Shown piece by piece: positions 36,479 through 38,742 of a DNA stretch of 64,000 bases (the stretch's first letter is position 1; each line of letters begins with the position of its first letter). The notes under the pieces were generated by a model. That model worked only from the letters and a program-made list of their open reading frames with translations, had not been told where the DNA came from and searched no databases. A program made the position numbers and the translations under genes. The DNA is from Crocinitomicaceae bacterium (GTDB taxonomy: Bacteria; Bacteroidota; Bacteroidia; Flavobacteriales_D; Crocinitomicaceae), in assembly GCA_018402525.1 (NCBI GenBank), contig JAGYIR010000011.1, forward strand, positions 620,001-684,000. The letters are read 5' to 3'.

Positions 36479-36491
36479 AAAAATAAAGGTG

Positions 36492-36818
36492 ATGAAAAAG
36501 GGAAATAAAATGAAAACGGTAAGTCTTGACCATTTGATCGACAAACATGTCGGTAAGATTGGAACGCCTGAACGGGACGCTTTCGAATATGAATTAAGCA
36601 TTGACTTGATTGGGCATGCGATTAAACAAGCCCGAAAAGAACGCAACTTGACTCAAGAAGAATTGGGTAAGTTGGTTGGTGTTCAAAAAGCGCAGATCTC
36701 TAAAATTGAGAACAGTATTAAAAATGCTCGACTTGATACGATTATGAAAATATTTAAGGCTTTGGGTGCAACGGTAAATTTCAATGTAGAACTTGATCAT
36801 AAAAATTTAGCGTATTAA
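36492..36818 (+). CDS. HigA-type XRE antitoxin
   Basis: A 108-residue antitoxin. The N-terminal part (SLDHLIDKHVGKIGTPERDAFE) is the toxin-binding arm typical of Bacteroidota HigA partners of Gp49-type toxins. The Cro/CI HTH occupies about 40-95 (IKQARKERNLTQEELGKLVGVQKAQISKIEN). ATG 36492 is used; ATG 36510 with AAGGG seven bases upstream, or GTG 36489, are alternatives. It lies 13 bases after the toxin pseudogene. With the toxin broken it may persist as a plain repressor. Confidence 0.85.
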   Translation: MKKGNKMKTVSLDHLIDKHVGKIGTPERDAFEYELSIDLIGHAIKQARKERNLTQEELGKLVGVQKAQISKIENSIKNARLDTIMKIFKALGATVNFNVELDHKNLAY

Positions 36819-36970: not shown

Positions 36971-37600
36971 ATGGAAAATTTTGACCGCAAAAAACATTGG
37001 GAAAATATCTACCAGACAAAAGAGCTGAAAGACGTTAGTTGGTTTCAACCGACACCTGAAACTTCTTTGGACTTCTTCAAGCAATTCAATGTGCCGACAA
37101 CTGCAAAAGTCATTGACATTGGTGGTGGCGACAGTTTTTTGGTAGACCATTTACTCGATTTGGGATATCAAGACATTTCAGTTCTCGACATTTCAGCGGC
37201 TGCTATTGACAGAGCAAAACAACGACTTGGAGAAAAAGCAAAAAATGTGAAATGGATAGTTGCAGATGCCGCAACTTTTAAACCGACTGAAAAATATGAC
37301 TTTTGGCACGACCGAGCCGCATTCCACTTTTTGACCGACGAGCAAGAAATTTCAAACTATTTGCAAACGGCACAAGCAAATATTAACCAGTCAGGTATTT
37401 TGGTTATCGGGACTTTTTCAGAACAAGGACCAAAAAAATGCAGCGGAATTGAAATCAAACAATATTCGGAAACGACAATGACCGACCAACTGAAAAATTT
37501 ATTTGAGAAAATCAAGTGTGTAACCGTTGACCATAAAACACCTTTTGACACCATTCAGAATTTTGTTTTCTGCAGTTTTAGAAAGTTACAAGCGAATTGA
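36971..37600 (+). CDS. class I SAM-dependent methyltransferase
   Basis: A 209-residue cytosolic methyltransferase. The SAM-binding motif I is KVIDIGGGDSFLVDHLL (about 46-62), the acidic loop ends ISVLDISAAA, and the post-I region is VKWIVADAATF. The N-terminus (FDRKKHWENIYQTKELKDVSWFQPTPE) belongs to a methyltransferase group that I associate with scattered, transferable single genes in Bacteroidota. Substrate unknown (small-molecule type, related to thiopurine/tellurite methylases). It has no operon partner and lies in the accessory patch with the toxin remnant. Confidence 0.83.
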   Translation: MENFDRKKHWENIYQTKELKDVSWFQPTPETSLDFFKQFNVPTTAKVIDIGGGDSFLVDHLLDLGYQDISVLDISAAAIDRAKQRLGEKAKNVKWIVADAATFKPTEKYDFWHDRAAFHFLTDEQEISNYLQTAQANINQSGILVIGTFSEQGPKKCSGIEIKQYSETTMTDQLKNLFEKIKCVTVDHKTPFDTIQNFVFCSFRKLQAN

Positions 37601-37648
37601 TATGACGCAAAAAAAATAGCAAGGCGAAAGGCACACAGGAGTTTCAAT

Positions 37649-37871
37649 AAAAAAACCCATGTGGTTGGTTAACTGAGACTTCAGATAACACGCTTAGGAT
37701 TGCTGAAATGATCTGTGATTCGCTGTTTGATTGCTCTCTCTATCCGAAGATAGTGCGACCTGACATCCTACTTCTGAGTCTCTCCTTAAGATAATTTTTT
37801 AAGCCTCAAATTGTCCACATGGGTCCTTCTTGCGAAGTTGACTATACGCCAATCTATGTTGGGATGAGTCA
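37649..37871 (-). ncRNA. candidate structured RNA (6S-like rod), minus strand
   Basis: No reading frame, but a dense fold is seen on the minus strand. A 10-bp perfect closing stem joins ACCCATGTGG (37824-37815) to CCACATGGGT (37664-37655), directly followed by a T-run (plus A 37649-37655). Inside, GAGACTCAGA (37782-37773) pairs with TCTG-A-AGTCTC (37685-37675, one bulge), TAGGAT (37770-37765) with ATCCTA (37700-37695) and TCGC with GCGA. The tip is CTATC-TTCG-GATAG (37753-37740), a C(UUCG)G tetraloop hairpin. A 5' hairpin CTTC-GCAA-GAAG has a GNRA loop. A promoter lies at 37877-37907. The long rod with internal bulges resembles 6S RNA; that identity is inference. Confidence 0.65.
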
Positions 37872-37876
37872 TACAT

Positions 37877-37907
37877 CGAATATAGGCACTTTATTCCACT
37901 AAATCAA
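37877..37907 (-). promoter_or_regulatory. promoter of the candidate RNA
   Basis: Minus strand: TTG (37907-37905), 20 bases, then TATATTCG (37884-37877), one base from the TAnnTTTG consensus. It predicts a transcript start near 37871. FkbM has its own similar box TAAATTCG at 37929-37936 on the plus strand. Confidence 0.55.
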
Positions 37908-37959
37908 GTAATATTTCAACAAAAATTGTAAATTCGCCTCCCTTAGAAGTTAACTATCT

Positions 37960-38742
37960 ATGATCGTTTTTATTAAGAAAATTCTATTCAAGATCTTATC
38001 GCAAAAAGCCTATTTAAAAACGCTACACAGAAGTTTTTATCTGCTTTACTCGCTGGGTTTTCTTAAGAACGATGCACGCTTCAAGTACCATTATTTGGTG
38101 AAGGATTTGATTAAACCAAGTGATACCGTTGTTGATATTGGCGCAAACCTCGGTTATTTCTCCAAGACCTTTTCGCGTTTAGCATCGCAAGGAAAACTGA
38201 TTAGCATAGAACCAGTCAAGCCGTTTTACGATATTTTGGTGTACTTTCTAGGATCAAAAAAGAACGTAACGATTTACAATTATGCGTTGGGAAATGAGGA
38301 AGGCACTATCACAATGGTACTTCCAGAGTCGAATGGTATGATTCGAACAGGTTTACCGCACATTGCTTCGTCGGAAGAAGAAAAAAAGGCACATAAAACG
38401 CACGAAGTCCAACTAGTGAAGGGAAGCGAATTATTGTCGGAACTAGCTAAAATTGATTACATCAAATGTGACATTGAAGGATATGAAGTCGTTGTGTTCA
38501 ATGAACTTCGACCCATCATTCAAAAACACGCACCAACTGTTCAAATTGAAATAGGTCCCGAAAACGAAGCTGAAATGATTGCATACTTTAAAGACTTAGA
38601 CTACATTCAATACGGTGTGGCGAATTTTAAAGTCGTGCGAGAAGTCAACGATACGCAACAAGAGCAAGGTGATTTCCTTTTCGTGCACGCATCCAAATCA
38701 GATGCATTTGAGCATGAGATGAAATCTAAAAATCGTTTCTAG
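37960..38742 (+). CDS. FkbM-family methyltransferase
   Basis: A 260-residue SAM methyltransferase. Motif I is TVVDIGANLGYFSKTFSRLA (about 56-75), followed by LISIEPVKP, NYALGNEEG and the family signature IDYIKCDIEGYEVVVFNEL. FkbM enzymes O-methylate sugars or polyketides, but the family is broad and the substrate is unknown. No glycan cluster is adjacent. ATG at 37960. The stop overlaps the convergent mscS-type gene by 4 bp. Confidence 0.9.
   Translation: MIVFIKKILFKILSQKAYLKTLHRSFYLLYSLGFLKNDARFKYHYLVKDLIKPSDTVVDIGANLGYFSKTFSRLASQGKLISIEPVKPFYDILVYFLGSKKNVTIYNYALGNEEGTITMVLPESNGMIRTGLPHIASSEEEKKAHKTHEVQLVKGSELLSELAKIDYIKCDIEGYEVVVFNELRPIIQKHAPTVQIEIGPENEAEMIAYFKDLDYIQYGVANFKVVREVNDTQQEQGDFLFVHASKSDAFEHEMKSKNRF

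Follow-up and report, generated by a model that had tools for sequence, protein, structure and literature searches.

A probable 6S RNA gene with a covarying two-hairpin 5' module in a Crocinitomicaceae bacterium

The primary sigma factor of the phylum Bacteroidota is unusual. Nearly all bacteria are said to possess 6S RNA (excerpt of PMC8414754). In its canonical form (RF00013; E. coli, B. subtilis 6S-1) the RNA is a rod that opens into a central bubble, with a hairpin facing the 5' bulge (excerpts of PMC8414754 and PMC12005410), and in E. coli a central hairpin arises in the refolding induced by product RNA, or pRNA (excerpt of PMC12005410). Within the Bacteroidota, 6S RNA was detected in B. 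thetaiotaomicron, with evidence for pRNAs by dRNA-seq (excerpt of PMC7366714), and a 6S transcript was reported for F. psychrophilum (excerpt of PMC9723704). Two Rfam families describe 6S RNA of this phylum, 6S-Flavo (RF01685) and Bacteroidales-1 (RF01693, Rfam label '6S-Bacteroidales RNA suggested').

The window, a stretch of 64,000 nucleotides of contig JAGYIR010000011.1 from a Crocinitomicaceae genome of an uncultured genus, contains a 359-bp gap (37601-37959) between two plus-strand methyltransferase genes. A class I methyltransferase gene (36971-37600) bounds it on the lower-coordinate side and an FkbM-type methyltransferase gene (37960-38742) on the other, beyond which lies elongation factor P (EF-P, from 39710). 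The minus strand of the gap carries a predicted 6S RNA with a primary transcript of ~224 nt (37649..37872), its start placed from the promoter and its end from the U-tract. Homology, covariation, promoter and anatomy make it very probable that this is the gene of the bacterium's housekeeping 6S RNA, in agreement with the original prediction, where 6S RNA was the leading reading. The annotated-size genes flanking the locus on both sides lie on the strand opposite to the RNA. A coding reading of the element was rejected, as no overlapping ORF exceeds 28 aa. A plus-strand gene for an HTH_3 (Cro/C1-type) regulator of 109 aa (36489-36818) is also close to the locus.

Single-sequence folding gave a z-score of -2.92 for the minus strand (0/200 shuffles as good) and of -2.31 for the plus strand (4/200). 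Folding alone is only suggestive for this RNA, and the z-scores of the two strands are not decisive; the comparison with homologues settles the reality of the structure. The covariance-model score at the window was 168.7 bits on the minus strand versus 20.5 on the plus strand, and the long rod proposed for the minus strand is present.

When 4227 Rfam families were compared with the window, 6S-Flavo came out on top with 26.4 bits (gathering threshold 85), and Bacteroidales-1 reached 19.4 bits (gathering threshold 60). The Rfam check recommended in the original prediction thus pointed to the two Bacteroidota 6S families as the best-scoring ones, but as neither reaches its cut-off at the window, this test alone would have failed. 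The two scores are weak by themselves, because whole-genome searches with the same models found other places at 18.9 and 17.9 bits and did not list the window site, which was lost in the first look. At the window, the RF01693 alignment spans the region from the closing stem to the U-tract. Flavo-1 (RF01705), originally named among the models to search with, gave no window match up to E 10 and was rejected as an identity; the relevant families are RF01685 and RF01693. The RNA follows the canonical 6S plan, but RF00013 had no match in its own genome at E up to 10 and its promoter is of the Bacteroidota type. We class it as a 6S RNA and not as an RF01693 member, since it scores below the RF01693 gathering threshold. 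Because the direct Rfam scores are below cut-off, the case for 6S was built on homologues.

By blastn, matches were found in 32 of 149 genomes, the bacterium's own included. The window core and 27 relatives were aligned (A2) for a first covariance model, R1; alignments A1 and A2 exclude the rearranged locus L010 and the spurious locus L038. R1 matched 88 of the 149 relatives, counting the bacterium's own genome and the 27 genomes used for training. Besides the own genome, these comprised 28 of the 33 other genomes of the same genus (18 of the 28 had given training sequences and 10 had not); the remaining matches fall in the family and order. Single matches were the rule (85 of the 88 matched genomes), with two each in G019, G034 and G084. 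Across the order, 87 of 299 genomes were matched, a set overlapping the 149 relatives. A second model, R2, was made from an alignment (A4) of 86 R1 matches from 85 sources, chosen from the R1 hits with a limit of 1e-8 that dropped four weaker matches (three antisense, one partial). Loci L013 and L034, members of A1/A2, are absent from the A4 sources. R2 matched 76 of 295 Bacteroidia genomes, and both models match the window at 37651-37824. We take f1, the window's family, to be Crocinitomicaceae. L253 and L196 are one locus: f1 counts over 70 rows omit L253, those over 71 rows include the locus twice, and the conclusions are the same.

The original prediction had been staked on covarying stems in homologous loci, and such stems were found. 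In the 28 homologues, 94.9% of 1036 cells were paired and 23 of 37 pairs had changes on both sides; none of 500 shuffles reached the observed values, and slid versions of the structure paired 28-46%. In the 86 sequences of A4, an alignment fitted to the structure and thus favourable to its pair counts, all 37 core pairs had double changes and 93.1% of cells were paired. The structure is a rod of ~200 nt with a closing stem, a central bubble and an apical arm. The 10-bp closing stem P1 (5' arm 37815..37824, 3' arm 37655..37664, minus strand as all elements below) is present as described; 97.1% of it is paired, with double changes in 7/10 pairs. It runs into a terminator-like tract of seven U (37649..37655), and at least four U occur among the five bases from the P1 end in 28/28 homologues. 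The apical arm P3 (37771..37786 with 37696..37708) is 91.9% paired (7/11 pairs with double changes). It is followed by P4/P5, with UGU....UCGC on the 5' side (37755..37765) and GCGAAUCACA on the 3' side (37714..37723), assessed in the 28- and 86-sequence alignments. P5 is 100% paired (4/4 with double changes) and P4 88.1%; the latter is the weakest element, as its third pair is unsupported and fails in 9/28 and 48/86 sequences. A C(UUCG)G-capped apical hairpin (37740..37753), another part of the original prediction, can form and appears when the conserved stems are enforced, but it is absent from the free minimum-energy fold; its sequence and length vary among relatives. The TAGGAT/ATCCTA stem was rejected as not conserved (68.5% of cells paired versus 67.7% in shuffled sequences).

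The long-range stem P2 joins UUGAGGCUU (37801..37809) to the 3' arm at 37673..37681, so that GAAGCUU on the 5' strand is paired to AAGCUUC on the 3' strand. It is 96.0% paired in the 28 sequences (2/9 pairs with double changes) and 94.4% in the 86 structure-fitted ones (9/9). Between P2 and P3 the consensus leaves a central bubble. Its 5' strand (37787..37800), unpaired, is presumed by analogy to be the template side for pRNA; no prediction of the pRNA start was obtained from the sequence. Its 3' strand (37682..37695) carries a conserved UAAnCnUGUU, from column counts in the 86 sequences. The resemblance of UAAnCnUG to the promoter box TAnnTTTG was considered as a -7 mimic and rejected: scored by a matrix built on 68 f1 promoters, it outranks all other sites in the same RNA in just 1/63 f1 sequences. 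A 3'-strand hairpin, Ph (37668..37689), is 90.8% paired with double changes in 4/9 pairs, and supplies what is expected of the 6S class across from the 5' central bulge, a hairpin or else an alternative pairing that could serve the release driven by pRNA. Ph shares bases with P2. The two are mutually exclusive and both conserved, as a pRNA-driven release switch would need. In the window, the P2 form has -44.7 kcal/mol and the Ph form -40.1 (4.6 in favour of P2), with a free optimum of -45.5. The longest-hairpin shuffle test on the 3' strand was weak, with 37/71 f1 rows at p 0.05 or less and one locus counted twice.

We infer expression, polymerase binding and pRNA synthesis of the window RNA by analogy. 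Following known 6S biology, the rod would mimic an open promoter and be bound by the primary sigma-A RNA polymerase, which would be out of use when nutrients are low. On resupply, the polymerase would copy a short pRNA from the 5' bubble strand. The copy would then invade the strand forming P2, leaving the 3' strand able to adopt Ph, upon which the polymerase would be released.

Upstream of the RNA, the predicted promoter TTG-N20-TATATTCG (37905-37907 and 37877-37884) is present as described. The -7 box TATATTCG (37877..37884) is of the Bacteroidota type TAnnTTTG. A box of this type, with at least 5/6 consensus bases and TA required, was located 40-66 nt upstream of the core in 63/70 f1 leaders (shuffled 21%). 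The -33 element TTG (37905..37907) is weak; 11 of the 67 aligned f1 leaders have it at this offset, 23 bases before the box, and 0-5 have it at any of the other 29 offsets. In the box-aligned f1 leaders, the twelfth base after the first T of the box is A in 59/67 (4-40 at seven neighbouring offsets). Since the Bacteroidota box is placed at -12 to -5 relative to the start (excerpt of PMC9723704), this conserved A would be the +1, 37872 in the window. As judged from sequence, the RNA is encoded by a standalone gene with its own terminator and its own housekeeping promoter of sigma-A type.

Two hairpins precede the rod. H1 (37839..37871) has an outer and an inner stem, 96.4% and 75.9% paired in 28 f1 sequences, with double changes in 10/10 pairs; it is part of the window's own fold. 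H2 (37826..37837) is the GNRA-capped 5' hairpin of the original prediction (CUUC-GCAA-GAAG), present and assigned here to a separate 5' module before the 6S rod; it is paired in 100% of cells, and 2/4 pairs have double changes. Together, H1 and H2 have 90.0% of 381 cells paired and 12/14 pairs with double changes in the 28 f1 sequences. None of 500 shuffles reached the observed values, and slid versions paired at most 51%. By single-sequence folding, the two hairpins were recovered in 67/70 f1 leaders (not in L037, L164 and the second L177 copy; shuffled f1 leaders 19%) and in 7/7 leaders of families f3 and f7, and in 3/49 leaders outside f1/f3/f7 (L171, L197, L209). The comparison indicates that the 5' module is a real RNA structure and, in our sample, confined to this part of the order. 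As the hairpins lie between promoter and core, they should belong to the primary transcript. The RF01693 model begins at the closing stem, and the two-hairpin leader is found at 0/8 of its cut-off places; by these comparisons, the two covarying leader hairpins are a feature that Rfam's models of 6S RNA do not include. H1 and H2 may have a role in processing, in stability or in the binding of a protein.

The link to the accepted 6S families of the phylum was made through divergent homologues. Searched at E up to 0.01 in the same 295 Bacteroidia genomes, RF01693 gave 22 matches, of which 8 exceed the cut-off. All 8 over-cut-off places coincide with R2 matches within 4 nt, are aligned by R2 end to end, and were not part of the R2 training. 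Of the 22 matches, 19 coincide with R2 (two, G046 and G047, were in training), and three weak ones (29.5-30.8 bits; G459, G594, G601) had no R2 match. When 39 divergent R1 loci were scanned with Rfam, either RF01693 or RF01685 coincided with the R1 match in 27 of them, with E no higher than 1. Only one of the 39 was over the cut-off: L171, from another family of the order, with 61.7 bits for RF01693 against 60 required, and 80.7 bits for R1. RF01685 had a single match in the 299 genomes of the order (G185, 46.4 bits), inside an R1 match, and reached its cut-off of 85 in none of them. From the coincidence of R2 with RF01693 and the overlaps at L171 and G185, the window RNA is judged to be a homologue of Rfam's suggested 6S RNA of Bacteroidales.

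A different rod-shaped regulatory RNA, functionally unrelated to 6S (a trans-acting sRNA or a protein sponge), would fit the sub-cut-off Rfam scores at the window and the absence of the RNA from some relatives. It would have to account for the recovery of all 8 RF01693 cut-off places by R2, for a bubble and a 3'-strand hairpin like those of canonical 6S, and for the single match in nearly every matched genome, so we regard it as improbable. Far less probable still is a role in cis, as leader or riboswitch, for one of the adjacent genes. The predicted start and the first codon of the FkbM-type methyltransferase gene (37960) are 88 bp apart, but that gene is on the other strand. At its other end, the minus-strand transcript stops at a U-tract; the plus-strand gene 36971-37600 has its 3' end towards it, and the minus-strand ORFs behind the U-tract (65-104 aa) have plus-strand ORFs across from them. 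Inverted repeats that arose by chance between the two genes might be suspected from the plus strand, which also folds better than most shuffles; covariation and wide conservation refute this reading, whose probability we take to be negligible. A housekeeping 6S RNA is therefore the preferred reading.

The distribution of this 6S RNA was not uniform, whether through loss or through divergence. With R2 at E up to 1, no match was obtained in 5 of the 33 same-genus genomes (G001, G003, G004, G005, G032), in any of the 15 tested near-complete genomes of genus g22, of the same family as the window (G054, G071, G083, G149-G153, G157, G160, G171, G183, G210, G212, G217), or in eight further genomes of the 35 tested. 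Unlike these 15, another g22 genome, G297, has an R1 match of 163.6 bits. In the same-genus genome G019, the 6S RNA is split over contigs G019:C55 (L010) and G019:C60, the 5' part being 83% and the 3' part 94% identical to the window, by rearrangement or misassembly. The genus g2 genomes G084 and G034 each contain, ~2 kb away from the first copy, a second one that is 6S-like but weaker (L177 290-460 and 2405-2574; L183 2376-2546 and 293-418). The second copy in L177 is without the 5' two-hairpin module.

Many 6S leaders of other families carried a different element that the Rfam 6S models likewise do not include, the boxA-like motif GUUC[UA]U[UA], a candidate rrn boxA. It was spotted by eye first and then counted on the same sequences, and the split into groups was likewise post hoc. 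Within 75 nt before the core it occurs in 27/49 leaders outside f1/f3/f7 (shuffled ~3%), or in 27/41 versus 0/8 when the 8 RF01693 cut-off places form a group of their own; the corresponding counts are 1/70 in f1 and 0/7 in f3/f7. The leaders with the motif are L175, L190, L191, L193, L194, L198, L206-L215, L217, L220, L221, L224, L225, L227, L229-L231, L245 and L257; also L294. It was missing in the sampled 6S leaders of f9, f14, f16 and some other families. In f13, f5 and f8 the motif lies 6-14 nt after a TAnnTTTG-like box and would be transcribed, as it is downstream of that box; in f22 no good box of this type was seen near the motif. The same motif was found upstream of 16S rRNA in 10/12 genomes, a raw count of one locus each without a shuffle control; a thirteenth genome, outside the 12, gave no recognisable 16S start. 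Genomes of f1 are among those with the motif before 16S rRNA, though f1 6S leaders are without it. In f65, GUUCAUU was present in 3/3 6S leaders seen (G598, G495, G465) and in the rRNA leader of G465.

A tentative, and on balance doubtful, generalization is that the 6S genes of Bacteroidota have 5' control modules that differ by lineage. In many families the 6S transcript would start with a boxA-type antitermination element shared with rRNA leaders, and 6S synthesis would in this way be coupled to the machinery of rRNA antitermination. Crocinitomicaceae would instead have the two-hairpin module, as a part of the functional RNA that modulates how 6S is processed or how it captures polymerase. 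Both leader features, the 5' module and the boxA-like motif, suggest controls on the production of 6S RNA, of which no description was found in the portions of the literature consulted. Literature searches for 6S RNA with Crocinitomicaceae or Fluviicola found none, and those for 6S RNA with boxA nothing relevant. As far as these searches reach, both leader features are new, and so is the lineage model; some cases are perhaps already in Wehner et al. 2014, reportedly a study of 6S distribution. With 76 matches of R2 versus 22 of RF01693 (8 over cut-off) in the 295 Bacteroidia genomes, the broader model adds many new cases of Bacteroidota 6S.

Among the best 80 EF-P relatives (up to 90% identity), the RNA was found on the opposite strand, ~0.5-1.9 kb upstream of EF-P, at 10/80 loci, a synteny of contextual value only. 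One record of this search, CP034120.1 (L078), is titled Glaciecola amylolytica and encodes an EF-P 82% identical to that of the window; Glaciecola is a gammaproteobacterium, and the title or the sequence looks wrong. Elsewhere in the window, the minus strand at 47184-47255 matches the S15-Flavobacteria ribosomal protein leader (RF03161) with 60.5 bits, over the cut-off.
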